From: a virus
Reading direction: 5' to 3' (one strand)
IMG/VR virus record: IMGVR_UViG_3300027128_000003
Span: 1-46,213 of that record
Length of the DNA stretch: 46,213 nucleotides
Part shown: piece after piece, positions 2,790-43,437 of the stretch
Position numbering within the stretch: the first letter of the stretch is position 1
Layout of the letters: every line of letters starts with the position of its first letter
Translations under genes and position numbers: made by a program
Notes under the pieces: model-generated
The model's database searches: none
What the model was told of the DNA's origin: nothing
Seen by the model: only the letters and a program-made list of their open reading frames with translations

Positions 2790-2824
2790 GTGGCCTAAGC
2801 CTATGGGTTTAGGCCACTTTTTTT
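2790..2824 (+). terminator. Intrinsic terminator abutting the next promoter
   Basis: GTGGCCTAA (2790-2798) pairs with TTAGGCCAC (2809-2817) and is followed by seven T. The T-run ends only 13 nt before the next start codon, with TAAATA in between. Confidence 0.9.
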
Positions 2825-2826
2825 AA

Positions 2827-2832
2827 TAAATA
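2827..2832 (+). promoter_or_regulatory. TAAATA late-promoter-like element
   Basis: TAAATA, then ATACT, then ATG at 2838. It sits directly after a terminator, so the downstream mRNA most simply starts within a few bases of the ATG. Confidence 0.7.
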
Positions 2833-2837
2833 ATACT

Positions 2838-5800
2838 ATGGCAACTCTTTTCGCATTATCTGATGGTGATATTAGTACCATCGGAGCTTTAAATAGTGCT
2901 GCTACTACTATTCAAAATGCCGGAGTCGTTGGCTCCGTTTTATCAGCAAATAGGGCACTAGCAGCATCTACTAGTTACACCAATAATACTCCTGTTAGAG
3001 GGATTGCATTATGTTTATCTTCTGTCGGCATAGTACTTCCTTCAGACACTATTACTATTAGATTAAGCACAACAAATTATGTTTATGCTGCATCGGGATT
3101 ATCGCCCGGGAGATATGTAAATAGTTATGTAACTACTGGATCACAAGCAATGGTTGGCTGGGTCTTGTTCAAATTACCGACCCCAACATCTTTTACTGCT
3201 GCACCTCCTTTATCTGTTTATGGTCCTAATTCAGTCAGATTGCTGGGGTTGAATGCTACTACACCAGCTTCTATATTGGTATATGGCCCGCATAATGCTA
3301 AAGCCGTACTTGCTGATACATTATATTTAACAAAATCTCTAAACACTGATTTTACTATAGAAAACAGAACAGTAACAGGTTCATTTTCAGGTATTACAAA
3401 TGTTTTTATAGGCGATGGTGTTAATTCGAGCAATGATTTTAATTTTCAAAATACAAATATAACTACTAATAATAGTTTATATATAGGACGTGGTGGGTTA
3501 TATTCTGGTGTTGTCACCATGACTGGCGGAAATATTGAAAATTTTATTCATGTTTTAGATGGCGGGGTTTTGTCAGCCAATTACGCGACTCCTACAGCAA
3601 CAGCCAGAATTAAAGCGGTTAGTGGTGCAATTGTAGATTTAACCAATGTTGTGGGATGGAGTATGCTTCCTACGTCCGGATATGCTTATAATTTCAATGG
3701 TAATCCTGCATTTAAATTTGATTATTTGCATGATATTACAACAGGATATGCAAAATTTGATAATTGTACTTTTAGAAAAGGCATTTCTTGTTGCAACCTA
3801 ATCAACAATGTATCCAACTTAACTGCTGTGAATACGTTATTTAAAGGAAAATACTTGCATGTGAATGGCGATAGATCTGCAATTATGGGTCCGATCATTT
3901 CAGATATTTTCTTCAAAACCGGAACAAATACAACCGTAAATAATGTTTCATTTTCAAATATATCTTCCGAAGAAGCTGTTACCTTAAGTGGTAATTATAA
4001 TAATTTTAAATTCGATAATTCTTATATTGAAAAAGAATTTGATATATTGAGATCTAATTTTTCTAATTCAAAAATATCTAACATATCAATACAGAGTAAT
4101 TCTGCATTAGATGCTATGATTCTTTCTGGTAATACAAATTTACCAGAGTTCGAAAATATTTTAATACAGGGTGGTAAAACCGGATTAACAAAATTTGATA
4201 GTTGCGATTTACAATTAAACGGATTATCTTGCTTATCTTCATACTATTATTCGATTTCCGCTAAAGATTTGACCGGCGAATTACGAAATCTTTATTTTAA
4301 AGATAGTACATATGGCGCGTATGACATGACATTTAAATCCAGTACTGCGCCTTTATTCATAAATGGGTTAACCGCTATTAGAGCCTCAAATGATACTTTA
4401 AATAGTAACACATTAACTGGTACGTCAGTATTAACTGGTGTATCTCCATTCGCTAGTGGAAATAGTTTATTATTATCTGCTATAGCAGCACGCGTCGTTG
4501 CCCCTATACCAAAAATTTTAACATATAATGATGATTTAACAATTGAAACCTGGTATTCACCAATATCAGCAAAGCTTGCACAAAATCAATCATTAATAAC
4601 CATTTGGGATCCATTATCTACTACAAATGCATCGTTAGGATGTATTGTGGGGTTGTATATAGATGTAAATGGTCGAATTAATATCCAAAAGGGATTGTCT
4701 GCTAACGGGGCCCCATCACTTATCACAACCGCACCCGCAACAAGCCCATTAACTAATAACAGATGGTATCATATTGTCACAACAAAATCTGGCAATAATT
4801 ATACATTATATCTAGATGGCAAATTTGTAATATCTGCAGCGACGCCAAATGTCGCTGAAAAAGAATTTTTTAAGACAGCGAATACGGGATCATACAATGT
4901 ATATATTGGATCTAGGCCAATTACTAGAACAACTTTCGGCGAATCATTATGTGGTTATGTAGGTGGAGCAAAAATTTCTTACGGATTAACATATAAAGAG
5001 GAATTTGATGTACCAACTACGCCACCAGTAACAACAGGCGGAACATTATTTAATTATATTCCTGGGACTAGTGCTACATATAACATCATTCCAAAAGCTT
5101 TCATCAATATAGAAGATAATAAATCATATTATTCTATTTCATTAAATGGATTGAAATTTATTGCCAATAATCCATTATCATCTTCTTTAATTGATATCTC
5201 TAATTCATCATACGAGAAATTTGAAGTTAATAAATCTGATTTAAGGACATATGGCAAACCATTAATAATGGATACCAATGAAGACTATATTAAAGGCACA
5301 TATGTTTTTAATAGATGTCAGTTAGAAAGCCAGATTGTAGATAGTGATACGATTATCGGGTATCAGCCTTATACTTATAGAGAAGCTGGATTTGCTGTGC
5401 AATATGCAAATGAAGATCCAACTAATAATTATAGGTGGACTAGAGGAGGTAAAGTTTCCTTAGACTCATCTACCAAATATCTAGGTGTACCTACAGAAAA
5501 ATTAGAATCCATTTCAAATGATCTACCCTTAAAGAGTTCAATTAAATTAATACCTGTTTCAGAAAGTTCTATCGTAAAAGGTATTGCTTTAACGTATAAA
5601 ACATCAATTGGATATGTTTCAGGAGGTTCATTGAAAGTAGATAAGAACACTATACTCGGTATTAATGAAGATACTGTGCTTGGGTTATTACCAGATACAA
5701 ATGATACTTGGTCTACTATTACTTTTTCATTATCAAATTTCAACACTCCTTTTTGGAAACAAAAGGCTTATCTGCTAAGTGGCAATTATCAACAATTTAA

Positions 5801-5864
5801 AAAAATAATTAAAAATAATTTCATTATATGTCAACACTTTTCACTATCACGTCTGGGAATTTAA
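2838..5864 (+). CDS. Large beta-helix / LamG adhesin-like tail protein
   Basis: 1008 aa. It begins MATLF, like the MSTLF of the next, larger protein, and the two look paralogous. Residues ~120-535 are Asn/Thr/Ile-rich with short strand-turn repeats (NNVSF, NSYIE, NISIQ), consistent with a parallel beta-helix. Residues ~560-725 form one LamG-like (concanavalin-fold) module: DDLTIETW at the start, RWYHIVTTKSG and YTLYLDGK in the middle, GYVGGAKIS near the end. These modules usually bind glycans, so a host-surface binding role is inferred. The C-terminus (SLKVDKNTILGINEDTVL) resembles the end of the next protein but then departs into low-complexity Lys/Asn sequence. The last 37 nt overlap the following gene in another frame. 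An A7 run just before the end suggests the natural C-terminus may have been altered by a frameshift. Confidence 0.8.
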   Translation: MATLFALSDGDISTIGALNSAATTIQNAGVVGSVLSANRALAASTSYTNNTPVRGIALCLSSVGIVLPSDTITIRLSTTNYVYAASGLSPGRYVNSYVTTGSQAMVGWVLFKLPTPTSFTAAPPLSVYGPNSVRLLGLNATTPASILVYGPHNAKAVLADTLYLTKSLNTDFTIENRTVTGSFSGITNVFIGDGVNSSNDFNFQNTNITTNNSLYIGRGGLYSGVVTMTGGNIENFIHVLDGGVLSANYATPTATARIKAVSGAIVDLTNVVGWSMLPTSGYAYNFNGNPAFKFDYLHDITTGYAKFDNCTFRKGISCCNLINNVSNLTAVNTLFKGKYLHVNGDRSAIMGPIISDIFFKTGTNTTVNNVSFSNISSEEAVTLSGNYNNFKFDNSYIEKEFDILRSNFSNSKISNISIQSNSALDAMILSGNTNLPEFENILIQGGKTGLTKFDSCDLQLNGLSCLSSYYYSISAKDLTGELRNLYFKDSTYGAYDMTFKSSTAPLFINGLTAIRASNDTLNSNTLTGTSVLTGVSPFASGNSLLLSAIAARVVAPIPKILTYNDDLTIETWYSPISAKLAQNQSLITIWDPLSTTNASLGCIVGLYIDVNGRINIQKGLSANGAPSLITTAPATSPLTNNRWYHIVTTKSGNNYTLYLDGKFVISAATPNVAEKEFFKTANTGSYNVYIGSRPITRTTFGESLCGYVGGAKISYGLTYKEEFDVPTTPPVTTGGTLFNYIPGTSATYNIIPKAFINIEDNKSYYSISLNGLKFIANNPLSSSLIDISNSSYEKFEVNKSDLRTYGKPLIMDTNEDYIKGTYVFNRCQLESQIVDSDTIIGYQPYTYREAGFAVQYANEDPTNNYRWTRGGKVSLDSSTKYLGVPTEKLESISNDLPLKSSIKLIPVSESSIVKGIALTYKTSIGYVSGGSLKVDKNTILGINEDTVLGLLPDTNDTWSTITFSLSNFNTPFWKQKAYLLSGNYQQFKKIIKNNFIICQHFSLSRLGI

Positions 5865-14613: not shown

Positions 14614-14619
14614 TAAATA
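14614..14619 (+). promoter_or_regulatory. TAAATA late-promoter-like element
   Basis: AATAAATA, then AAAAT, then ATG at 14625. It lies in the gap downstream of a divergent minus-strand gene, so no read-through from a plus-strand neighbour is expected. Confidence 0.65.
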
Positions 14620-19141: not shown

Positions 19142-19597
19142 TTATTTACTCCATTTTATACCATGTCTACAATCTGGCCAGATATAACCTACTTCTGGAT
19201 CAGCGTTTGGAAAGACATCTCCATAAAATACTGGATCTTTTCTTTTTAAAACACATTGATGAGTAAAATGAATTTCTTCATCTCCAAACCAAAACGGTAA
19301 TTTATTATTAGAAGAGAAGAAGTCCTTATAAAAAGCAATTTGGTCTTCTGTATTATCTTTATAACCTCTGCGCTTCCATTCCCTACAAGAAACAATTCCA
19401 TATTCTACTAATTGATTAAAGTGACCCCACCACATCCATTTGCATGGATCTCTGAAGCCTAATGTCTTGTCTTGATCTGGCTTCATTTGGAATGATCGCA
19501 AAATGCCCAAGACTTCTGCTCTTTGCTTACCCAATCTTCGGTAATCAAGAACTCTCAGAGATTTTTCATAATCTGGATACGGAAGAAATGTTTGCAT
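19142..19597 (-). CDS. Pyrimidine-dimer DNA glycosylase-like protein (MSMEG_6728 type)
   Basis: 151 aa. The start MQTFLPYPDYEKSLRVLDYR followed by RLGKQRAEVLGILR, and an inner WMWWGHFNQLVEYG, match the family annotated as MSMEG_6728/pyrimidine dimer DNA glycosylase, related in fold to T4 endonuclease V. The likely role is repair of UV-damaged phage DNA in the cytoplasm. With the UvdE-like enzyme at 26188 it gives this phage two UV-repair routes. It starts divergently from the 217-aa gene at 19639, and both share the palindrome GGTTTCGAAACC. No Shine-Dalgarno is seen. Family assignment is from memory of the motif; activity is inferred. Confidence 0.7.
   Translation of the reverse strand: MQTFLPYPDYEKSLRVLDYRRLGKQRAEVLGILRSFQMKPDQDKTLGFRDPCKWMWWGHFNQLVEYGIVSCREWKRRGYKDNTEDQIAFYKDFFSSNNKLPFWFGDEEIHFTHQCVLKRKDPVFYGDVFPNADPEVGYIWPDCRHGIKWSK
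19143..19148 (-). promoter_or_regulatory. TAAATA late-promoter-like element overlapping a stop codon
   Basis: TAAATA, then ACAAC, then ATG at 19137. The element overlaps the TAA stop of the upstream glycosylase gene. Confidence 0.6.
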
Positions 19598-19611
19598 GAT
19601 TAAAGATAGAT

Positions 19612-19623
19612 GGTTTCGAAACC
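19612..19623. promoter_or_regulatory. Shared palindromic CGAAACC element for two divergent genes
   Basis: GGTTTCGAAACC. The right half gives CGAAACC at 19617-19623, 22 nt before the ATG at 19639. The left half gives CGAAACC on the minus strand, 21 nt before the ATG at 19597. The plus side continues CCTTTAAATTAATTTT. Confidence 0.6.
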
Positions 19624-19638
19624 CTTTAAATTAATTTT

Positions 19639-20292
19639 ATGTTTAGAGTAGAAAATATTGAGAAGCTGGATCAACTTAAGAGAAAGTCAAGATATGAATC
19701 ACAATATCGCGATGAACTTAAGTTAGTTTCCTTTACCTTGAATAAAGAAATTGAAAAGGATGAAAAGCATAATTTTAATATTCTATTTGATTTTTTTAAA
19801 TCAAAGGAATGTCAATATTTTACTATCCTATCTGATGGATTTCATTGTGATAAAGAAATGATTGATTTTAGCAGTAAATTTAGAGATGAATGGTTGTTAC
19901 GGGTAGGATGGAGATCATCTCATTATACGATCTCCAAAAAAGGTACTTACTGGGATTCATCTTTATTCAGAGATAAAAGTGAATATAAAGGACTTTATGT
20001 AAAGAAAGATGATAATACTTATAAGCATTTTTCTAAACGCAAAGAAATTTTAAATTTTTATTTTTCAAATGGTATTGCTACCAATACCACCCAAATGCCT
20101 CTCCCTGCCTATGAATTTACAAGAGATACTGCTATTGATATTAAAACAATTCTTGCAATGCTTTCTCGCTTTGTAACAAAAGATATTATCGTTACAAATC
20201 TTAAACAAATTCGTCGTTATGTAAAACAGTATCATTGGCAAGGTAAAGAAGAAATCGTCGCTGCTTTAAAACAATATTCACACATCAAATAA
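19639..20292 (+). CDS. Unknown protein
   Basis: 217 aa, not recognised. It is rich in Lys and aromatic residues. The first half has a charged helical start and a segment with FTILSDGFHCDKEMIDFSSK. The C-terminal ~70 residues (FTRDTAIDIKTILAMLSRF, then LKQIRRYVKQYHWQGKEEIV) look like a small helical domain that could bind nucleic acid, but this is only a guess. It is transcribed from the CGAAACC-type element and lies just ahead of the MoxR gene, so it probably belongs to the non-structural set. Confidence 0.65.
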   Translation: MFRVENIEKLDQLKRKSRYESQYRDELKLVSFTLNKEIEKDEKHNFNILFDFFKSKECQYFTILSDGFHCDKEMIDFSSKFRDEWLLRVGWRSSHYTISKKGTYWDSSLFRDKSEYKGLYVKKDDNTYKHFSKRKEILNFYFSNGIATNTTQMPLPAYEFTRDTAIDIKTILAMLSRFVTKDIIVTNLKQIRRYVKQYHWQGKEEIVAALKQYSHIK

Positions 20293-21482: not shown

Positions 21483-21489
21483 AGAAACC
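21483..21489 (+). promoter_or_regulatory. CGAAACC-type promoter element (AGAAACC)
   Basis: AGAAACCCTTTAAAATTTTT leads to ATG at 21505, 22 nt from the first base. It begins 8 nt after the T-run of the MoxR terminator, which argues for new initiation here. Confidence 0.65.
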
Positions 21490-21504
21490 CTTTAAAATTT
21501 TTAT

Positions 21505-22958: not shown

Positions 22959-22964
22959 TAAATA
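22959..22964 (+). promoter_or_regulatory. TAAATA late-promoter-like element of the first DUF1501 gene
   Basis: GATAAATA, then ATAAT, then ATG at 22970. Upstream transcription is divergent, so this is the evident initiation site for the plus-strand group starting here. Confidence 0.7.
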
Positions 22965-22969
22965 ATAAT

Positions 22970-24235
22970 ATGAATAGAAGAGATTTCCTCTATGCTGGCC
23001 TCTTCGGAGGGTTGGGCCTAACAACCGGTGATGTACTTAGAGCTCAATCAGAGTCTAAGATTTCAGCTAAGGCACAGTCAATTATTCACATCTACCTACC
23101 AGGTGGTGCAGCTGCACAAGAAACTTGGGATCCAAAGATTCATGCACCTATTGAATTCAGAGGACCTTTGGGTTCTGTTCAGACTAGTATTCCGGGCGTA
23201 CATTTCTCAGAGTATATGAAAGAAACAGCAAAGATCGCTGATAAGATTACTGTTGTTCGTTCTATGACTCATGGAGAAGCAGCCCATGAACGTGGTACCC
23301 ATAATATGTTTACTGGATATCGTCCATCTCCTGCTATTAAGTATCCTTCCTTTGGTTCTGTAGTTGCTCATGAATTTGGAAGTAGAAATTACTTACCTCC
23401 TTATGTTTGTGTTCCGAATATGAATTCAGAAGATGCAGGAACAGGATATCTTTCAAAAGCTTTCGGACCTTTCTCATTAGGATCAGATCCAGCAGCCAAA
23501 GACTTCGCCGTTCGTGATTTAAAAATGAATGCCGGTGTAGATGAAGCGAGATTTAATCGTCGTCGTAGTATTCTTGAAACGGTAGATAATCATTTCCGTT
23601 CTATTGAAAATGCCGATGCTATTGCATCTATGAATAAGTTCTATCAACAAGCTTACGATCTTGTCTCTTCATCACAAGCAAGAGAAGCTTTTGAATTATC
23701 TAAAGAACCAGAACATATTCGTAATGCATATGGACAAACACAAGCCGGTCAAAGATTCTTAATGGCACGTAGATTAGTTGAAGCAGGAGTACGTTTCGTT
23801 TCCGTTGTCTATGGTGGGTGGGATCATCATGCTGCTATTGGTGCTAATATTAAAAATCAATTACCAGCATTCGATCAAGCTTATGCAGCTTTGATTAAAG
23901 ATCTAGACCAAAGAGGAATGTTAAAAGATACAATTGTTATGGTATCTTCAGAATTCGGCAGAACTCCTAAGATCAATAAAGATGCCGGTAGAGATCATTG
24001 GCCAAGAGTATTCTCAGTAGCATTCGCCGGCGGTGGATTCAAAGAAGGTTATATTCACGGAGCTTCCAATGCAACAGGTGCAGAGCCAGAAGAAAAACCT
24101 TTGACCGTTGAAAATATGGCGGCAACAATTTATAATCAAATCGGTATCGACCCTGCTAAACATTTGATGTCAGATGGCAATAGACCAGTATCAATTGTTT
24201 ATAACGGAACAGTCGAACAAGATTTATTAGCATAA
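22970..24235 (+). CDS. DUF1501 family protein with Tat signal (copy 1)
   Basis: 421 aa. The start MNRRDFLYAGLFGGLGL is a twin-arginine signal (RRDFL at 3-7), so export across the inner membrane in folded form is expected. The body follows the DUF1501 pattern: IIHIYLPGGAAAQETWDPK, SMTHGEAAHERGTHNMFTGY, GGWDHH near 280, SEFGRTP near 326 and GRDHW near 340. DUF1501 belongs to the alkaline-phosphatase/sulfatase-like superfamily and is abundant in planctomycetes and verrucomicrobia, usually beside PSCyt genes; its activity is not established. I chose ATG 22970 over an in-frame ATG at 22955 because of the TAAATA-N5 spacing. The coiled-coil gene follows 4 nt downstream. This is very unusual cargo for a phage. 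Confidence 0.9.
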   Translation: MNRRDFLYAGLFGGLGLTTGDVLRAQSESKISAKAQSIIHIYLPGGAAAQETWDPKIHAPIEFRGPLGSVQTSIPGVHFSEYMKETAKIADKITVVRSMTHGEAAHERGTHNMFTGYRPSPAIKYPSFGSVVAHEFGSRNYLPPYVCVPNMNSEDAGTGYLSKAFGPFSLGSDPAAKDFAVRDLKMNAGVDEARFNRRRSILETVDNHFRSIENADAIASMNKFYQQAYDLVSSSQAREAFELSKEPEHIRNAYGQTQAGQRFLMARRLVEAGVRFVSVVYGGWDHHAAIGANIKNQLPAFDQAYAALIKDLDQRGMLKDTIVMVSSEFGRTPKINKDAGRDHWPRVFSVAFAGGGFKEGYIHGASNATGAEPEEKPLTVENMAATIYNQIGIDPAKHLMSDGNRPVSIVYNGTVEQDLLA

Positions 24236-24860: not shown

Positions 24861-24867
24861 CGAAACC
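24861..24867 (+). promoter_or_regulatory. CGAAACC-type promoter element
   Basis: CGAAACCGGGTAAAATGAGG leads to ATG at 24883, 22 nt from the first base, directly after the coiled-coil gene stop. Confidence 0.6.
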
Positions 24868-24882
24868 GGGTAAAATGAGGAT

Positions 24883-26191: not shown

Positions 26192-27078
26192 GATTAGGAT
26201 TATGTTGTTTATTATTGGGAGACGAAAGTAGTGAATTTAAATCAACTACTGTCACCTGGGCAAAAAAGAATGAAGATAAAATTTATAATAAATTAAAAAA
26301 TATCTATTCTCATAATTTAAATGAATTATGTAAAGTAATAGATTATTGTATTAATAATAATATTTGGCATTATCGAATTTCATCATCTTTATTTCCTCTA
26401 GGTGATTTAGAACCTTATTCTAATTTCTTTAACGATTTTATTCATAATAAAGAATATTGGTCAATTGCAAGTAAAAAAATTAATGAATATATTTCCTTGG
26501 GTGGTAGATTGTCTATGCATCCTTCGCAATTCTGCATTATAACCAATGAGGATAAAAAGATATCTTCTTCATCTATAGCTAACCTAGAAATGCATGGTGA
26601 TATCATGTCAAATCTAGGGATTCCTGAATCATTTCAGTATCCAATCAACATTCATCTATCAAATGGCAAAAAGCCTCAGGAAGCTATCAATGCGGCGCTT
26701 TTAAACATAGAAAAATTATCTGCTAGAGTTAGATCTAGACTAGTCTTTGAGAATGAAGATAAAAGTTATTGGACTTGGCAAAAGATTAAAAAAGATTTTC
26801 CTAATACTCCTATTACTCTTGACTATCATCATCGTTTAATTAATAATGAAAATGAACCCGAATGGAGGGCTCATGAAGCCTGTGTAGCTACATGGACCCG
26901 TTACGGTGTTAAACCATTATTCCACTATAGTGAAGGTAAAGATCATTCATTAGATAGATCCCATTCAGACTATATTAAAGAATTGCCGAGATACTCTGAT
27001 ATGGATTTAGAGATTGAAGCTAAACAAAAGAATCTAGCTATATTAGATATAAGACAAAAACAATATATTTTTGAATAA
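26188..27078 (+). CDS. uvsE: UV damage endonuclease UvdE-like
   Basis: 296 aa, the usual length. The start MRLGLCCLLL, then WHYRISSSLFPLGDL at 60-74, GGRLSMHPSQF at 105-115, and later ENEDKSYWTW and TLDYHHRL match UvdE/UVDE-type apurinic-like TIM barrels that nick DNA 5' of UV photoproducts using divalent metals. Its job is probably repair of sunlight damage to the phage genome. It is translationally coupled (ATGA) to lipoprotein 2, an odd pairing of an exported and a cytoplasmic protein. The symbol is by family resemblance. Confidence 0.85.
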   Translation: MRLGLCCLLLGDESSEFKSTTVTWAKKNEDKIYNKLKNIYSHNLNELCKVIDYCINNNIWHYRISSSLFPLGDLEPYSNFFNDFIHNKEYWSIASKKINEYISLGGRLSMHPSQFCIITNEDKKISSSSIANLEMHGDIMSNLGIPESFQYPINIHLSNGKKPQEAINAALLNIEKLSARVRSRLVFENEDKSYWTWQKIKKDFPNTPITLDYHHRLINNENEPEWRAHEACVATWTRYGVKPLFHYSEGKDHSLDRSHSDYIKELPRYSDMDLEIEAKQKNLAILDIRQKQYIFE

Positions 27079-27081
27079 ATA
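27076..27081 (+). promoter_or_regulatory. TAAATA late-promoter-like element overlapping a stop codon
   Basis: TAAATA, then TATTC, then ATG at 27087. Its TAA is the UvdE-like gene's stop codon. Confidence 0.6.
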
Positions 27082-27963: not shown

Positions 27964-27969
27964 TAAATA
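27964..27969 (+). promoter_or_regulatory. TAAATA late-promoter-like element
   Basis: AATAAATA, then AAAGC, then ATG at 27975. Because the upstream gene is divergent, it must supply the transcript for the fibre gene. Confidence 0.7.
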
Positions 27970-29765: not shown

Positions 29766-29772
29766 CGATACC
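29766..29772 (+). promoter_or_regulatory. CGAAACC-type promoter element (CGATACC)
   Basis: CGATACCCGTTAAGATTAGC leads to ATG at 29787, 21 nt from the first base. Confidence 0.55.
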
Positions 29773-29786
29773 CGTTAAGATTAGCC

Positions 29787-30291: not shown

Positions 30292-31656
30292 ATGGATTAC
30301 CTTTGCAATACACGCTTCGATGTCTCTTCTAGAAGAGAGTTCCTAACAAAAACCAGTTTCGGTGTTGGTGGTGTAGCATTGGCTACAATCCTTCAAGACC
30401 TTCAAGCAGCGGAAAGCCCACTTAAACCACGTAAAGCTCCTTTACAAGGCAAGGCTAAAGCTGTTATTCATATCTTTGCTGGTGGTGCACCTTCTCACCT
30501 GGATACCTTTGATTATAAGCCCGAAATGAAGAAGTTTGATGGCACTTCCTCAGACAGTGGTCAAAGAGAGATTTTTTATACTCCTTTTAATTTTACTCCA
30601 TCAGGTAAGTCTGGAATTCATATTTCCGATGCTTTTCCACAACTTCAAACCGTTGCTGATGAAATGTGCCTTATTAATTCTGTCACCACAGATGTTCCTG
30701 CCCATGGTCCTGCAGCTAAATTAATTCATACTGGTTCGTTGGTACTTCCTAAACCTTCCCTAGGTTCTTGGACCCTATATGGATTGGGAACAGAAAATCA
30801 AAGTTTGCCTGGATTTATTACTTTAGGTGGCGCAGCTGAATGGAGACAATCTTCTTTCCTTCCTTCTTTATTCCAAGGTTCTGTTGCTAACTTTAATCGT
30901 AATGCAGCTCCTAATAAGGTTCTTCCAAATCTTTTCTCAGAATTCACAACAGCAGATTCACAAAAGAATCAAATTGATCTAACAAAGAAATTGAACTTAA
31001 TGCATGAACAAAGAGTTCAAAAAGACGAACAATTAGAAGCACGTATTGAATCCTTTGAACTAGCATTTAGAATGCAAGCTGCTGCAACAGATGCTTTTGA
31101 TATTAAGAAGGAATCTGAATCAACCCGTGAAATGTATGGTAATACAGAATTAGGAGCAAAACTTTTAGTAGCAAGACGTTTAGTAGAACGTGGTGTTCGT
31201 TTCGTTCAGATCGAGGCTGGTGGATGGGATCATCATACAGATGTTAAAACAAATGTAACACGTGTAGGAGGAGCTATTGATACTCCTGCTGCAGCACTTA
31301 TTAGAGATTTAAAACAAAGAGGACTCTTAGATTCTACTCTCATTATTTGGGGTGGAGAATTTGGTAGAACAGTAACTACCCCAGGTCGTGTAAATGAACG
31401 TTCTGGAAGAGATCATCATAGCAAAGCATTTTCTATGTGGATGGCCGGGGGCGGTGTAAAGGGAGGTATTCGTTATGGTAAGTCGGATGAGATTGGTAAG
31501 AATGTCGCAGAAGATCCTGTGACAGTACATGATTTCCATGCAACGGTCTTAAGGTTGCTTGGATTCGACCATACGCAATTGACATATCGATATAATGGTA
31601 GGGACTTCCGTTTGACCGACAATTACGGAGAGATCATCAAGGAAATCATTGCATAA
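30292..31656 (+). CDS. DUF1501 family protein with Tat signal (copy 2)
   Basis: 454 aa, close to the usual DUF1501 length. The N-terminus MDYLCNTRFDVSSRREFLTK is a classical start for this family, with the twin-arginine RREFL at 14-18. Motifs: VIHIFAGGAPSHLDTFDYKP, EAGGWDHHTD near 310, GGEFGRT near 354, RSGRDHHSKAFSMWMAGGG near 370 and YRYNGRDFRLTDNYGE near the end. It is more canonical than copy 1 and not a recent duplicate, since the two differ widely, so two separate acquisitions or an old split are likely. Expected location is the periplasm; the reaction is unknown. ThyX and the PSCyt gene follow, which recalls the DUF1501/PSCyt pairing of planctomycete genomes. Confidence 0.92.
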   Translation: MDYLCNTRFDVSSRREFLTKTSFGVGGVALATILQDLQAAESPLKPRKAPLQGKAKAVIHIFAGGAPSHLDTFDYKPEMKKFDGTSSDSGQREIFYTPFNFTPSGKSGIHISDAFPQLQTVADEMCLINSVTTDVPAHGPAAKLIHTGSLVLPKPSLGSWTLYGLGTENQSLPGFITLGGAAEWRQSSFLPSLFQGSVANFNRNAAPNKVLPNLFSEFTTADSQKNQIDLTKKLNLMHEQRVQKDEQLEARIESFELAFRMQAAATDAFDIKKESESTREMYGNTELGAKLLVARRLVERGVRFVQIEAGGWDHHTDVKTNVTRVGGAIDTPAAALIRDLKQRGLLDSTLIIWGGEFGRTVTTPGRVNERSGRDHHSKAFSMWMAGGGVKGGIRYGKSDEIGKNVAEDPVTVHDFHATVLRLLGFDHTQLTYRYNGRDFRLTDNYGEIIKEIIA

Positions 31657-31739: not shown

Positions 31740-31746
31740 CGATACC
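31740..31746 (+). promoter_or_regulatory. CGAAACC-type promoter element (CGATACC)
   Basis: CGATACCCTTTAAAATAGGT leads to ATG at 31761, 21 nt from the first base. It would drive the 121-aa gene and thyX. Confidence 0.65.
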
Positions 31747-31760
31747 CTTTAAAATAGGTT

Positions 31761-32130: not shown

Positions 32131-32838
32131 ATGAAAGTAACCTTAATTGACAAGTTAGGAACAGACCTCACAGTTGTAAATGCAGCTCGTGTATCTTTTG
32201 ATAAAGAATCTTGTTTGGAAGTAGTTGGTTATGACGAAGAAGTGGATTTAGATTCCAGAAGTGTAACCTCAACACCAATTCTTAAGCTAAAGAAAGGAGA
32301 CGAAAAACTGATTAACTTCTTGGCTGAACACAATCATTGGTCTCCGTTTGCACATGCGCAATTGCAATTTAGAATTAAAGCACCAATCTTTGTTGCGAGA
32401 CAACTTGGTAAACATCAAATCGGAATGATTTGGAACGAGATTTCTAGACGATATGTAGACAGTGAACCAGAATTTTATTTTCCTGATAATTGGCGCAAGA
32501 AAAATCCCGACAAAAAGCAAGGGTCAATGGAAGACGAATTTGTTAATTTGGATTTTGCAGAAAATTACACTGTTAAAAATATTGTGATGAGCTGTCTTGA
32601 ACTATACAAGGTTATGCTTTCCCAAGGCGTATGTGCTGAGCAAGCTAGAATGGTTCTGCCTCAAAATATGTATACCGAATGGTATTGGACTGGTTCGTTA
32701 TATGCATTTGCTCGTGTTTGTGGTTTGCGTTTAAAGAAAGATACACAAGCTGAAACGAGAGTTATTGCTCAACAAATTGATGAACTAATTGCAAAAGAAT
32801 TTCCTGTGTCTTGGAAAGCTCTAACAAAAAATAAATAA
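32131..32838 (+). CDS. thyX: FAD-dependent thymidylate synthase
   Basis: 235 aa. The ThyX signature appears in its phage form RQLGKHQIGMIWNEISRRY at 90-108, with VNAARVSFDK at 16-25, HNHWSPFAHAQLQF at 67-80 and CAEQARMVLPQNMYTEWYW in the C-terminal third. It makes dTMP from dUMP using methylene-tetrahydrofolate and flavin, raising the thymidine supply for replication of this AT-rich genome. It lies between a small unknown gene and the PSCyt gene; the TAAATA box of the latter overlaps its last codons. Confidence 0.95.
   Translation: MKVTLIDKLGTDLTVVNAARVSFDKESCLEVVGYDEEVDLDSRSVTSTPILKLKKGDEKLINFLAEHNHWSPFAHAQLQFRIKAPIFVARQLGKHQIGMIWNEISRRYVDSEPEFYFPDNWRKKNPDKKQGSMEDEFVNLDFAENYTVKNIVMSCLELYKVMLSQGVCAEQARMVLPQNMYTEWYWTGSLYAFARVCGLRLKKDTQAETRVIAQQIDELIAKEFPVSWKALTKNK
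32832..32837 (+). promoter_or_regulatory. TAAATA late-promoter-like element of the PSCyt gene
   Basis: AATAAATA, then AACAT, then ATG at 32843. The box overlaps the final thyX codons and stop. Confidence 0.65.
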
Positions 32839-32842
32839 ACAT

Positions 32843-35821
32843 ATGAAGAAGATCCTATTAACACTACTGGCAATTGCTTCTATTTCTTATGGAGATGAAG
32901 GAATTAGTTTCTTTGAAAAGAACATTAGACCACTTCTTGCTGAGAAATGTATTGAGTGTCATTCTTCTGAAAAAGGAGTATCAAAAGGAGGATTAACTCT
33001 AGACACTAAGAAAGGCTGGGAAGATGGTGGTCAAGGAGGAAAAACTATCATCCCAGGAAAGCCTGGAGAGAGTATGTTCATCAAGGCTATTGAATATACA
33101 GATGACGATTTGCAAATGCCTCCAAAGAAGAAAGGAGGAAAACTATCCGATGAACAAATCAGCTTATTCAAACAATGGATTGCAATGGGAGCACCAGATC
33201 CAAGAGCTGGAGGAGAAGTCAAAAAGCTATCTGGAATGACAGAGCAAGCTAAAATGAATTGGTCTTTCTTGCCAATTTATTATAAGCCAGAAGCTCCCAT
33301 GATTGGTGTACTATCTAGGACTTCTAAGATTGACTTTAGCAACTGGGCAAGGAATGAGATTGATTCATGGATTGTGTGGAAAATGATTAATGATAAGACT
33401 GGATTAACTCCTTCACCTTATGCTGAACCAGAAGCCCTTCTTCGTAGAATGTTTCTTGACCTGGTTGGTTTTGCCCCAACCGTAGAATCAATGAAACAGT
33501 TCTCCATGCAATATCGGGATGCTATTCTGAGAAAACAACCAGGAACAATTGAGTATCTCGTTGATCAATGGATTGATCAGCTTTTAGCTTCTCCTCATTA
33601 TGGTGAGCGCTGGGCTAGACACTGGCTCAATACAGCTAGATATTCAGACACTACTGGCAACAGAGAAGGTAATGCCCGTAATGCTGAGTATCGTTATGAG
33701 TATGCTTGGACATATAGAGATTACGTAATTGATTCTTTTAATCAAGATAAGCCTTTTAATAAGTTTATTGTAGAACAATTAGCAGCAGACCAATTGCCTG
33801 ATATTGGTACAAGTGATCCAAGACTGGCAGCTTTGGGCTTCCTCACGGTTGGTAAACGTTTTAATAACCCAGATGATGTGATAGATGAACGTATTGATAC
33901 AACCTTTAAAGCATTCATGGGACTAACTGTATCATGTGCTCGTTGTCATGATCACAAATTTGATCCAATTCCTACTGCCGATTACTATTCAATGCATGGA
34001 GTATTCAACTCAATCTATGAACCAACGGAGGTTCCAATGGTTGCAAATGTAGGTTCTAAATATGAAGATGACTTTGTAAAGAAAGTTGAAGGGTTTGAAA
34101 AGGAAAGTAGAGACACTTATTACATCTATCTCAGAAAGAAGATCAAAGAATTTAATGAAAAAGCTTCTGCTTATCTAATGATCTCCACTAAGAAGGGGGC
34201 TGAAAGATTTGATGCATTGAAAGAATATGGATTCAACCAGAATAGAGAAGATGATGACTTTCCTGCACGTGCTGTGAGACTCAATGATAAGCATCCCGTG
34301 CTTGGAATCTTTTCTATTCTATCTAAGACTCCAGAAGATAAGATTGCTGAAAAGTTTGCAGAGATCAAAGACAAACCAGAATGGAATCAGTCAGTAAGAG
34401 CTCAATTTAGTCCAGCTACTCCAAAGACTCTAAAAGATGTAGCTGCTTTATATGAAACTTTATTCAATTCTGTTTCTCCAACACAGATTAATGATTACTA
34501 TGATCAAGCTGCAAAGAAAGACTTTACAGAATATAAAGATAAGAATATGGCAGAACTTATTACTGCTGTATATCCAGTAATTCCAGCTTCTGATATTTGG
34601 ACTAATGACCAATTCTTGCAAGTGTTTGGAGGAGGCATGATGAGGAATGCCACAGCAAAACTTCCTCCTTTACCAAGAAACTTCTTGCAATCAACTGCAG
34701 TTAATAAAATTAACTCATTGAAGATTTCCCACAAAGGAGCCCCAGGAGGAGCAATGATTGTTAAGGACAAAGACAAGCCAGTCGATTCTAAGATTTACAT
34801 TCGTGGAGAGAGATCCAAACAAGGAGACGTAGTTCCCCGACGCTTCCTTACTTTCTTAAATCATGAAAACGAAGTATTTAAGCAAGGATCCGGTCGCTTA
34901 GAGCTTGCAGAAGCAATTGCTTCTAAAGATAATCCAATGACAGCAAGAACGATTGTTAACAGAGTCTGGATGTGGCACTTTGGTGAAGGTCTAGTAAAGA
35001 GTCCAGATGATTTAGGTAATATGGCTTCTCGTCCAAGTAATCAAGAACTCTTAGACTATCTTGCTAGCTGGTTTGTAGAGAATGGATGGTCTTTAAAGAA
35101 GCTTCATAAGTTTATCATGAAGTCTGCAACATATCGTCAGTCATCTGCCCCCAATGCAGCATTTGCTGTGAAAGATGGAGAGAACAAATACTTCTGGCAC
35201 TATCCAGTCCGTCGAATGGACTTTGAATCTATTAGAGATTCCTTGGTACAAATTACTGGCAAGATGGATAAATCTGTTGGAGGTAAACCAGTTAATATTA
35301 CTGATGAACCTTATTCCTATAGACGTTCCATTTATGGTTATGTTGATCGTTCTGCCGTATCTGACCTCATGATGCAGTTTGACTTCTCAGATCCAGAAAT
35401 GACAAACTCTAAGAGAGCTTCATCTATTGTACCTCAACAGGCTTTATTCTTCATGAATTCACCTATGATCATTGATGCGGCAAGAGCTGTTACAGAGAGA
35501 AAAGATTTCCAGAATGCAAAGGATGATGATGAGAAAATTAAGGTTGTTTATGCTGTTTTGTTTCAGAGATATCCTAGGGGATCAGAACCATCAATGGCTA
35601 AAGAGTTTATAACTGAGGCTACTAAACATTATAAACCATCAACAACAAAACCAAAGACTACAACAAATGCTGAGGTGACTTTAGAGACTACGGTAGTTAG
35701 CAATAGTAATATGGGAATCCTGAAGAATGTAGGGAAGCCTGTTGAGCGCAAACCATTGACTCCATGGGAAGCCTATATACAAGCATTGATTATGTCTAAT
35801 GAGTTTGTATACTTCAATTAA
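32843..35821 (+). CDS. PSCyt1-DUF1549-DUF1553 exported cytochrome-like protein
   Basis: 992 aa, full length for the family. A Sec signal (MKKILLTLLAIASISYG) is followed by a PSCyt1 c-type cytochrome domain with heme motif CIECH at 36-40, then LTLDTKKGW and MPPKKKGGKLSDEQ. The middle is DUF1549/PSCyt2 (RRMFLDLVGFAPT, HYGERWARHWLNTARYSDT), with a second CARCHDH at 365-371 before KFDPIPTADYYSMHGVF. The C-terminal third is DUF1553/PSD1 (RTIVNRVWMWHFGEGLV, SRPSNQELLDYL). This planctomycete-verrucomicrobial family normally sits next to DUF1501 genes; its reaction is unknown, but periplasmic redox work is likely. It has an exact phage TAAATA box, so it is not a random host fragment. Confidence 0.93.
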   Translation: MKKILLTLLAIASISYGDEGISFFEKNIRPLLAEKCIECHSSEKGVSKGGLTLDTKKGWEDGGQGGKTIIPGKPGESMFIKAIEYTDDDLQMPPKKKGGKLSDEQISLFKQWIAMGAPDPRAGGEVKKLSGMTEQAKMNWSFLPIYYKPEAPMIGVLSRTSKIDFSNWARNEIDSWIVWKMINDKTGLTPSPYAEPEALLRRMFLDLVGFAPTVESMKQFSMQYRDAILRKQPGTIEYLVDQWIDQLLASPHYGERWARHWLNTARYSDTTGNREGNARNAEYRYEYAWTYRDYVIDSFNQDKPFNKFIVEQLAADQLPDIGTSDPRLAALGFLTVGKRFNNPDDVIDERIDTTFKAFMGLTVSCARCHDHKFDPIPTADYYSMHGVFNSIYEPTEVPMVANVGSKYEDDFVKKVEGFEKESRDTYYIYLRKKIKEFNEKASAYLMISTKKGAERFDALKEYGFNQNREDDDFPARAVRLNDKHPVLGIFSILSKTPEDKIAEKFAEIKDKPEWNQSVRAQFSPATPKTLKDVAALYETLFNSVSPTQINDYYDQAAKKDFTEYKDKNMAELITAVYPVIPASDIWTNDQFLQVFGGGMMRNATAKLPPLPRNFLQSTAVNKINSLKISHKGAPGGAMIVKDKDKPVDSKIYIRGERSKQGDVVPRRFLTFLNHENEVFKQGSGRLELAEAIASKDNPMTARTIVNRVWMWHFGEGLVKSPDDLGNMASRPSNQELLDYLASWFVENGWSLKKLHKFIMKSATYRQSSAPNAAFAVKDGENKYFWHYPVRRMDFESIRDSLVQITGKMDKSVGGKPVNITDEPYSYRRSIYGYVDRSAVSDLMMQFDFSDPEMTNSKRASSIVPQQALFFMNSPMIIDAARAVTERKDFQNAKDDDEKIKVVYAVLFQRYPRGSEPSMAKEFITEATKHYKPSTTKPKTTTNAEVTLETTVVSNSNMGILKNVGKPVERKPLTPWEAYIQALIMSNEFVYFN

Positions 35822-35994: not shown

Positions 35995-36158
35995 AAACAT
36001 TTTGGTATCTATGGAGTAAAGCATTAGGAGAGAAAGCCCATGATGACAGGGCTACAGCAGATAAGGTTGCAATTATAAGAACACTTATTGTTCTTGTATA
36101 CGTTATAACTAATTTGTTTATAGTATCAAATATTATTATAGGTTGGTTAAAACATTAA
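35991..36158 (+). CDS. Small single-span membrane protein
   Basis: 55 aa. MKTFWYLWSKALGEKAHDDR precedes DKVAIIRTLIVLVYVITNLF and a hydrophobic C-terminus ending GWLKH, so one membrane helix is expected. The pattern (FWxxWxKxLGEK...ADxVAIIRTLIVL..ITNxFI) is one I recognise from small conserved proteins of other large phages. Function unknown. The stop codon forms part of the TAAATA box of the next gene. Confidence 0.7.
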   Translation: MKTFWYLWSKALGEKAHDDRATADKVAIIRTLIVLVYVITNLFIVSNIIIGWLKH

Positions 36159-36161
36159 ATA
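36156..36161 (+). promoter_or_regulatory. TAAATA late-promoter-like element overlapping a stop codon
   Basis: TAAATA, then AAACT, then ATG at 36167. Its TAA ends the small membrane-protein gene. Confidence 0.6.
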
Positions 36162-36166
36162 AAACT

Positions 36167-36760
36167 ATGAACTTTAAGGATTTTTGTTATTCAGAAAAAA
36201 ATATTTCACTTCTTGAAGAAGTAGAAGTTAGTGAGGGTCTAAAATATCATCTAGATAACAATATTTCTTTATATGAGAATGTTTATCGTATTTACTCAGA
36301 TGCTTGGATTGCTTTAATAGAAGAAGCTAGAAGTCTTTATGAAAGAGATCTTCTAGCTTTAAATGATGAAGATGCAGAATTATTAGGAACAGACGTTGGT
36401 GAAGTGGTTCTTATTGAAGGCAGAGAAATATATTTGGATGCACCAATTCCATTAGAAGAAGATCTAATGTTAGAAGAGAAATCAAAAGGCAAAAAACATC
36501 GTTTAAATTCTCCATTCAGAACACCGGGGGGACCTAAGAAGTTTGCCGTTTATGTAAAGACAGGAGCAGGTAGAGTTAAGAAGGTAACATTCGGTGATCC
36601 TAATATGCGGGTTAGAAATTCTTCTAAAGCTAGAGCCAAATCATTTAGAGCAAGACATAAATGTGATCAGAAGAAAGACCGAACCACTGCGGGATATTGG
36701 TCCTGTAATATTTCTAGATATCGTAAGGCTTTGGGATTAAAGTCTAGCAGAGTATGGTAA
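36167..36760 (+). CDS. Conserved phage protein with basic C-terminal domain
   Basis: 197 aa. I start it at the ATG of MNFKDFCYSEKN, with TAAATA 5 nt upstream, not at the TTG eight codons earlier. The first half is acidic and helical. The second half (HRLNSPFRTPGGPKKFAVYV, GRVKKVTFGDPNMRVR, FRARHKCDQK, then AGYWSCNISRYRKALG) is strongly basic and highly characteristic of a protein I associate with T4-like and pelagic phages, often near head-assembly genes. Two cysteines and a histidine in the tail could bind metal. A role in the head core or DNA binding is inferred, not shown. Confidence 0.75.
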   Translation: MNFKDFCYSEKNISLLEEVEVSEGLKYHLDNNISLYENVYRIYSDAWIALIEEARSLYERDLLALNDEDAELLGTDVGEVVLIEGREIYLDAPIPLEEDLMLEEKSKGKKHRLNSPFRTPGGPKKFAVYVKTGAGRVKKVTFGDPNMRVRNSSKARAKSFRARHKCDQKKDRTTAGYWSCNISRYRKALGLKSSRVW

Positions 36761-37029: not shown

Positions 37030-37262
37030 TACTATTCGGTTTATCGTTATTATTAATTGTCATGCAAATCGACTCAATTTATCTTAGACCAATTCTAGAA
37101 ACATTAAAAGCAGCTAATACAGTTATTGATAAACCAACAAATCCTATTGATTCATATGGTACTATCCAAGAAAATTTTGGAACAACAAAATCACCAACTA
37201 TCTACAATGCTCACGGTATTGTAACCCCAGAGAATCCAAATACTCTCATCGCAAAAGTCTAA
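37023..37262 (+). CDS. Small membrane-anchored or exported protein
   Basis: 79 aa. The hydrophobic start MLILFGLSLLLIVMQIDSIY is either a signal anchor or an uncleaved membrane helix. The rest is polar and Pro/Asn/Thr-rich (NPIDSYGTIQENFGTTKSPT), suggesting an extended extracytoplasmic tail. Not recognised. Its stop codon is part of the next TAAATA box. Confidence 0.6.
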   Translation: MLILFGLSLLLIVMQIDSIYLRPILETLKAANTVIDKPTNPIDSYGTIQENFGTTKSPTIYNAHGIVTPENPNTLIAKV

Positions 37263-37265
37263 ATA
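37260..37265 (+). promoter_or_regulatory. TAAATA late-promoter-like element overlapping a stop codon
   Basis: TCTAAATA, then TAGAT, then ATG at 37271. Confidence 0.6.
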
Positions 37266-37270
37266 TAGAT

Positions 37271-37756
37271 ATGATCAAGATCATTGCTTTACTTGGTCTT
37301 TTAGCTTTACCTACTTATGGTGGCTTAAAGCTAAAAGAGAAAGAATCTCCTTCTTCTTTATCGTTAGATCAAGTAAAGCAAGGAACTGATGACCTAGGAA
37401 ATATTAATTTAGATTTAATTGCTAAGCTTAATGCGGGTGATTTAGTATCATTTAAATTAGCAGATCGTATTGTTGTAGGTAGAGTAACAAAAGTAGAGAT
37501 AGTAGAGAACGAACATATCAAAGTTATTGGTGTTTTCGATAAAGAAGAAAAAGCCGGGTTTGGTTTCATCTTCTCCCAGAAAGAAGGTAAGATTGGGGGT
37601 ACGCTCTTATTTGAAGGAGATAATGTTACCTATCGTTTACGATACAATGAGAATAAAAAATTCTTTTATCTAGAGAAAGATCAAACGCCACCCATTAAAA
37701 TTAATCATGATTCAAGCGTCAAAAGACATTCTTCAACACGCGGAACATCTGTTTAA
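37271..37756 (+). CDS. Secreted beta-rich protein of unknown function
   Basis: 161 aa. The start MIKIIALLGLLALPTYGG is a Sec signal. The mature part has LNAGDLVSFKLADRIVVGRV, GVFDKEEKAGFGFIFSQKEG and LLFEGDNVTYRLRYNE. This order of strands recalls the small propeptide-like domain (GDxVxxPLxxxxxxxGxV...GxFxxxxxGxFxF..YRI) on secreted verrucomicrobial and planctomycete enzymes, here without an enzyme attached. The resemblance is weak. Its last 50 nt overlap the TilS-like gene. Confidence 0.6.
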   Translation: MIKIIALLGLLALPTYGGLKLKEKESPSSLSLDQVKQGTDDLGNINLDLIAKLNAGDLVSFKLADRIVVGRVTKVEIVENEHIKVIGVFDKEEKAGFGFIFSQKEGKIGGTLLFEGDNVTYRLRYNENKKFFYLEKDQTPPIKINHDSSVKRHSSTRGTSV

Positions 37757-38465
37757 AAACCAAAAAGCACCCACTGCAAAATATACTTTAATGGTTTCAG
37801 CAGGAGTAGACTCTATTGCTGCTGCTCATTATTTTATTCATAAGGTCAGTAGAGAGAATGTGATGGTATATCACTTCAATCATAACCTAAGACCTCAGAA
37901 TAATGAAATGGAAAGAAAGGTTAAACAATTTTGTGAAGATTATAAAATCCAATTTCATACTTGTAAAAATGAATTGCCTAACGATTCAGAATGGTTTAAA
38001 GAATCTAAAAACTATAGAGAAGGTGATTTAAGAAGGATGCGATTAGGTTATATTCGAACAGAAAGAACTATTGCTATTACTGCTCACCATTCTGATGATG
38101 TAGTAGAATCTTATCTTCGCAATACCTTCGAAGGCCATGCAGATTATCTACCCATTCCTTTTGCAACAGCTGTAGAGTGCTATTTAAAAATGGGTACCTC
38201 TGTTATTGCACATCCATTCTTATTCTGCAGAAAACAAAATTTTATCTCTTATGCAGAGAGACATGACCTAATGAAGTATGTAGAAGAAGACGAAACAAAT
38301 AAGGTTGTGAAAGGTTCTAGAAGGAATATGATTAGAAATCTTATTGTTCCAGTATTGAGAAAACATGATATTGTTATGAATAAAATGCTCATTAGGAATA
38401 TGTCAGAAAGATTGAAAGATCAATTAAAGAAGGATTTGATTGAAAAAATTAAAAACGAAGTTTAA
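37707..38465 (+). CDS. tilS: TilS-like tRNA(Ile)-lysidine synthetase
   Basis: 252 aa, shorter than bacterial TilS and lacking the C-terminal domain. The PP-loop motif is SAGVDSIAAAHYF at 31-43, a variant of SGGxDS, followed by VYHFNHNLRP, LGYIRTERTIAITAHHSDD and, near the end, SRRNMIRNLIVPVLRK, typical of TilS. The enzyme would modify C34 of tRNA-Ile(CAU) to lysidine so that it reads AUA codons, common in an AT-rich genome. No tRNA gene was found in the window, so the substrate may be host tRNA or a phage tRNA elsewhere. It starts inside the preceding gene. Confidence 0.8.
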   Translation: MIQASKDILQHAEHLFKNQKAPTAKYTLMVSAGVDSIAAAHYFIHKVSRENVMVYHFNHNLRPQNNEMERKVKQFCEDYKIQFHTCKNELPNDSEWFKESKNYREGDLRRMRLGYIRTERTIAITAHHSDDVVESYLRNTFEGHADYLPIPFATAVECYLKMGTSVIAHPFLFCRKQNFISYAERHDLMKYVEEDETNKVVKGSRRNMIRNLIVPVLRKHDIVMNKMLIRNMSERLKDQLKKDLIEKIKNEV

Positions 38466-38468
38466 ATA
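38463..38468 (+). promoter_or_regulatory. TAAATA late-promoter-like element overlapping a stop codon
   Basis: TTTAAATA, then TTTCC, then ATG at 38474. Its TAA ends the TilS-like gene. Confidence 0.6.
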
Positions 38469-40115: not shown

Positions 40116-40143
40116 CAAAAAAATACCACCTTGCGGTGGTATT
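40116..40143 (-). terminator. Intrinsic terminator of the lysis cassette
   Basis: On the minus strand AATACCACC pairs with GGTGGTATT across a 4-nt loop and is followed by a T-run (the A-run at 40117-40123 of the plus strand). Confidence 0.85.
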
Positions 40144-43431: not shown

Positions 43432-43437
43432 TAAATA
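43432..43437 (+). promoter_or_regulatory. TAAATA late-promoter-like element
   Basis: GTTAAATA, then ATATT, then ATG at 43443. Upstream transcription is divergent. Confidence 0.65.

Follow-up and report, generated by a model that had tools for sequence, protein, structure and literature searches.

Known late promoters and leaderless genes

Late transcription in bacteriophage T4 is a textbook system in which the mRNAs carry 5′ leaders. The T4 late promoter has a TATA-type box and no required −35 element, and the box precedes +1 by about one helical turn (PMC2988020). The DNA studied here, a 46-kb IMG/VR record (IMGVR_UViG_3300027128_000003; 46,213 nucleotides, a fragment, hereafter the window), resembles the gp55/gp33/gp45-dependent T4 promoters (TATAAATA) in the type of box and in the gp55-type sigma factor of two distant relatives, G005 and G007. 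It differs in that most T4 boxes stand 9-39 nt away from a start codon and none has a spacing of five nucleotides (N5) to a gene start, whereas here the ATG stands at the predicted +1. In addition, the full TATAAATA is rare in the window clade, where the box is TAAATA and this core is kept at a fixed position.

Bacterial leaderless genes, known from Actinobacteria and Deinococcus-Thermus, have TANNNT some 12 bp before the start codon (PMC3160421). The window shares with them a box at a fixed distance from the ATG and the lack of a Shine-Dalgarno sequence, and both the second promoter class of the window and the TAAGAT-N6-ATG arrangement of G007 match the bacterial signature; here, in contrast, the arrangement is also found at a box of the phage late-sigma type, in a T4-related jumbo phage. 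In phiKZ-type jumbo phages the late promoter is TATG, with the G as start site (PMC5312081). These promoters are likewise short, phage-specific and at or near +1, but they are used by a phage multisubunit RNA polymerase, whereas here a T4-type box served by a gp55-like sigma factor would be expected. Transcripts of AR9 have leaders of 26-491 nt, as opposed to the leaderless ones predicted in this study. Each part, the leaderless mRNA, the T4 late promoter and the terminator, is known. In open-access text, no report was found of leaderless T4-type late transcription or of a T4-related clade of jumbo phages that combines the three as its standard late layout.

A terminator, a late box and a start codon within 49 bp

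The region at 2790-2838 (Table 1) separates an ORF with matches to tail and virion protein families (1265-2782) from an ORF whose 1008-aa product contains a Laminin_G_3/concanavalin-like lectin domain (E 9e-11). The preliminary description had named the latter a fibre gene, which the lectin domain and the tail/virion-type neighbor make plausible, although the identity of the protein is unproven. No homologue of it was found in IMG/VR, so the site at 2838 has no orthologue with which it can be compared.

A GC-rich hairpin followed by a U-run, as expected of an intrinsic terminator, was found at 2790-2824. The hairpin (stem GTGGCCTAAGCC/GGTTTAGGCCAC, loop TATG, 2790-2817) has a folding energy of −21.6 kcal/mol (z −4.3), which was equalled by 0 of 200 shuffles, and no other terminator-like site in the initial 20 kb of the window is as strong. 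It had been described with a 9-bp stem; the hairpin itself was recovered, but the stem read from the sequence has 12 pairs, including one G-U. The end of the T-run, the box, the start codon and the length of the protein could all be read directly and agree with the preliminary description. Only 2 nt lie between the T7 run and TAAATA. The earlier argument that the 5′ end must fall within 13 nt of the ATG holds for transcripts that do not result from read-through.

Table 1 Features of the 2790-2838 region and predicted promoter sites elsewhere in the window
Feature	Position	Strand	Basis or remark
Intrinsic terminator (predicted)	2790..2824	+	12-bp stem 2790-2817, T7 2818-2824; directly 3′ of ORF 1265-2782
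Late box TAAATA (putative T4-type late promoter TATA box)	2827..2832	+	−11 to −6 of ATG
Spacer ATACT, 5 nt	2833..2837	+	pyrimidine at −1
Predicted transcription start, A of start codon	2838, ±1 nt	+	inferred from box position and −1 pyrimidine
1008-aa ORF, lectin-like domain	2838..5864	+	probable tail fibre or surface protein
RCC1/NHL repeat protein, 1236 aa	box 14614-14619, ATG 14625, to 18335	+	same box in G001
DUF1501 protein	box 22959-22964, ATG 22970, to 24235	+	box and spacing kept in G001, G002, G006, G007
60-aa ORF	box 27076-27081, ATG 27087, to 27269	+	N5 in G001, G002; N6 in G006
596-aa putative virion protein	box 27964-27969, ATG 27975, to 29765	+	sequence
PSCyt1-PSCyt2-PSD1 protein	box 32832-32837, ATG 32843, to 35821	+	sequence
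197-aa protein	box 36156-36161, ATG 36167, to 36760	+	flanks diverged; box kept in G002, G006
161-aa protein	box 37260-37265, ATG 37271, to 37756	+	sequence
239-aa phosphoesterase	box 38463-38468, ATG 38474, to 39193	+	sequence
103-aa ORF	box 43432-43437, ATG 43443, to 43754	+	sequence
159-aa ORF, second packed site	hairpin from 40142 down, TAAATA 40113-40108, ATG 40102, to 39623	-	
155-aa ORF	box 19148-19143, ATG 19137, to 18670	-	sequence
60-aa ORF	box 22933-22928, ATG 22922, to 22740	-	sequence
173-aa ORF	box 27952-27947, ATG 27941, to 27420	-	sequence
291-aa ORF	box 42912-42907, ATG 42901, to 42026	-	sequence
287-aa ORF	box 44625-44620, ATG 44614, to 43751	-	sequence
Putative second class, ACCC-TT-TAAAAT-N6	21487..21504, ATG 21505	+	HNH endonuclease gene
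Putative second class	24865-24876, ATG 24883	+	motif
Putative second class	29770-29781, ATG 29787	+	motif
Putative second class	31744-31755, ATG 31761	+	motif
Putative second class	37690-37701, ATG 37707	+	motif

Spacing of TAAATA in the window

The hexamer on its own is under-represented in the 46-kb window (71 observed, 104 expected); its raw count is below chance and was rejected as evidence. TAAATA-N5-ATG, by comparison, occurs 17 times in the 46 kb; shuffles gave 2.3 ± 1.6 (maximum 9), the reversed-pattern control gave 0 occurrences in the window, and each of the other spacings from 0 to 40 gave 0-7. Under a simple longest-ORF rule for calling gene starts, 15 of 44 starts had the box exactly at −11 to −6, and none of the 44 was preceded by a Shine-Dalgarno-like motif. 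Both sequence marks of leaderless genes are thus present, namely a spacing that leaves no room for a 5′ UTR and the absence of a Shine-Dalgarno sequence. For about half of the starts, neither the late box nor the box of the second class is in the expected place.

The base at −1 is T or C in 94% of the cases in the gene-start analysis, as against 37% before the non-start ATGs of the window. Four of the five starts with a purine at −1 overlap the preceding gene, as expected if the initiator signal is restricted to the starts of transcription units.

Conservation of the spacing in related contigs

Contigs G001, G002, G003 and G006 are close relatives of the window, whereas G004/G005 (141 and 289 kb) and G007 (227 kb) are distant ones. 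Distances from the box to predicted gene starts were counted. In the window clade, 28 of 37 boxes are at N5, the other nine being at N1, N7, N9 and N12, with none at 13-45. The distribution is bimodal in G005 (15 boxes at N5, the rest mostly at 16-43) and in contigs found through gp55 (38 boxes at N4-5, most others at 14-45). This suggests that leadered and leaderless populations share one box in the relatives, and that the window clade has almost only the leaderless one. N5 is the main spacing in the 289-kb contig; in the 227-kb contig it stands alongside N6 (12 and 14 boxes, respectively), with a Shine-Dalgarno sequence at 6 of 273 starts and T or C at −1 in 77%. Among N5 sites, −1 is T or C in 28/28 cases in the window clade, 14/15 in G005 and 28/28 in the gp55 contigs (70/71 in total).

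Retention at orthologous starts points the same way. The gene at 36167 has unrelated flanks in the window, G002 and G006, yet TAAATA-N5-ATG is kept in all three, and it is likewise shared by the DUF1501 gene at 22970 and its G007 orthologue, whose proteins are 71% identical. At orthologous starts, 19-22 of 22 are identical in the columns of the box and 15-20 of 22 in neighboring columns, a contrast that is modest because many orthologue pairs are near-identical.

No clear excess of N5 over the control was seen in PA5oct, Phosso, Atu_ph07, XaC1, RaK2 or P-SSM2, of which PA5oct, RaK2 and Atu_ph07 are T4 relatives with a similar ATPase and a gp55 match. N5 was also not enriched in 80 contigs with a related ATPase, which show a TATAAATA peak at 12-13 nt instead, and the ATPase was accordingly rejected as a marker of the clade. 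Gene starts of G009 (152 kb), a contig with a DUF1501 gene, had no box at N5.

TAAATA peaks 12-13 nt before the ATG in a T4-like contig group (L043-L122), where 39 starts have the box at N12-13 and 22 of these boxes are TATAAATA.

Late sigma factor and transcription start

A gp55 gene is absent from the 46-kb fragment and probably lies in the missing part of the genome. G005 encodes a gp55-like late sigma factor (phrog_12791, E 1.9e-80), and the gene itself is preceded by TAAATA-N5-ATG, as are those for the tail tube, the terminase large subunit, a virion protein and an Rz-like spanin; the gp55-like match in G007 is weak (E 3e-13). In about 30 of 41 diverse gp55-bearing contigs (L210-L256, minus strand), the box lies 4-7 nt from the ATG of a gp25-like baseplate gene, a name assigned from the sequence and a weak T4 match. 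The box was thus found before late structural genes in all three settings: the putative virion and lectin-domain genes of the window, morphogenesis genes of G005, and the gp25-like gene of about 30 contigs. No homologue of the 1236-aa protein, another gene with the box, was found.

Since the T4 late box is located about one helical turn before +1, a spacing of N5 would put +1 at the A of the ATG or right beside it, and the −1 pyrimidine, together with the T4-like position of the box, points to the A itself. We consider it probable, on these comparisons, that T4-type late promoters give leaderless or near-leaderless mRNAs as a rule for the late genes of this clade. The 49 bp at 2790-2838 would then be the border between two late transcription units, at which the hairpin and T7 would stop transcripts arriving from the upstream tail gene. 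TAAATA would serve as a T4-type late promoter for host RNA polymerase with a phage gp55-like late sigma factor. Transcription would start at the A of ATG 2838, or within ~1 nt of it, and the 1008-aa protein would be made from a leaderless mRNA whose 5′-terminal AUG is the signal for the ribosome, in a clade without Shine-Dalgarno sequences, where leaders after the late box are rare or absent. The preliminary description had read this one site as leaderless or near-leaderless on the strength of its terminator; that reading now finds support independent of the terminator, in the fixed N5 spacing, the −1 pyrimidine, the bimodal relatives, the absence from T4 and the retention in orthologues.

The spacing is not fully rigid, as cases of N4, N6, N7, N9 and N12 exist, some of them (N4, N6, N7) at orthologous positions, so leaders of a few nucleotides are possible. 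TAAATA might then be a late promoter whose 5′ end falls a few nucleotides off the ATG, with a leader of 1-5 nt or with multiple starts. N5 nevertheless clearly predominates in the window clade, and nearly every N5 site has T or C at −1; we regard this alternative as a real but minor possibility.

If the leaderless reading is true, the clade would offer a natural experiment in the shift from leadered to leaderless expression. Sharp predictions of 5′ ends would follow, and both promoters and start codons could be called from sequence alone in phages without Shine-Dalgarno sequences.

A second promoter class

The motif GAWACCC-NN-TAAAAT, a putative second promoter class, is also found 5-7 nt from the ATG. 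Five genes of the window carry ACCC/ACCG-NN-TARRAT at N5 or N6, and the motif recurs in the relatives. Over the whole window it occurs 8 times, against 3.1 in shuffles (maximum 8); as this excess is modest, the strength of the motif lies in its placement and its conservation. An array of ~20 mostly small genes of G007 (L323, L324), which often start with ATGATG, has TTCCCC, a TAAGAT-like box and N6 ahead of each ATG, and TANNNT in G007 peaks at a spacing of 6 (48, against ~10 at neighboring spacings). This array looks like a family of middle promoters that have an activator box upstream. We put at about even odds the broader proposal that the clade has largely dropped 5′ leaders, with most transcription units of the late and the second promoter class, the latter being TTCCCC...TAAGAT in G007, starting on the A of AUG and one element encoding the starts of both transcription and translation, and that the gp25-type gene of T4-like phages more broadly keeps a conserved leaderless late promoter.

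A near-palindrome, ggtttcgaaacc, at 19597-19639 is common to two divergent genes (gggtttcgaaaccc in G001 and G002) and would place a promoter of the second class on each strand.

Host and translation signals

Megablast of the window against phage records gave no match; for its MoxR-type ATPase and HNH gene, the nearest named phages are PA5oct, Phosso and Atu_ph07. The window carries two DUF1501 genes (22970-24235 and 30292-31656) and a PSCyt1-PSCyt2-PSD1 gene (32843-35821). DUF1501 and PSCyt1-PSCyt2-PSD1 genes together form a cassette characteristic of Planctomycetota and Verrucomicrobiota. The closest cellular DUF1501 relatives belong to the same phyla, where a host is plausible. In cellular stretches, a Shine-Dalgarno sequence was found at 5/146 starts in Verrucomicrobiota and 9/160 in Planctomycetota, and a clear leaderless peak was not found at gene starts of either phylum. 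The arrangement in the window may hint at how phages adapt to hosts in which Shine-Dalgarno sequences are seldom used.

With no Shine-Dalgarno sequence at the 44 starts of the window and little use of it in the probable host phyla, TAAATA at −11 could instead be a translation signal for such hosts, carried on an mRNA with a normal leader; A/T-rich upstream regions are known in non-Shine-Dalgarno genes of several phyla (PMC5397173). However, the same box lies 14-45 nt upstream of other genes in G005 and the gp55 contigs, as a promoter would, and late morphogenesis genes are among those that carry it there. The preference for a pyrimidine at −1 suits a transcription initiator, strong terminators stand directly 5′ of the box, and a second, unrelated promoter-like motif is found at the same distance from the ATG. 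We therefore judge a translation signal to be very unlikely.

Terminator packing at other sites

A second packed site was found on the minus strand at 40142-40102, where the hairpin ATACCACC-GCAA-GGTGGTAT is followed by a T-run, TAAATA and ATG. Hairpin, T7, GCC, TAAATA and ATG are all kept in G002 and G006, while the loops differ (GCAA, TCGA-type and TTCG). The tail-tube gene of G005 shows the same packing of terminator, box and ATG. A stringent terminator lies ≤60 nt upstream of the N5 box at 2/16 sites in the window, as against 7/4746 background positions. Most N5 sites have no terminator, and the packing is an occasional extra, outside the promoter proper.

Another strong terminator (−19.6 kcal/mol) is present at 1218-1264, with ATG 1265 close behind; this site is without TAAATA and has no evident promoter.

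Neighboring virion-type genes are co-directional, and the hairpin at 2790 might be leaky, or an mRNA-stabilising 3′ end, with most fibre mRNA arising by read-through from the tail gene and the hairpin lying in a long leader, but this is very unlikely given the strength of a 12-bp stem with T7, the lack of a Shine-Dalgarno sequence before the ATG and the conservation of the packing at 40142 despite its changed loops.
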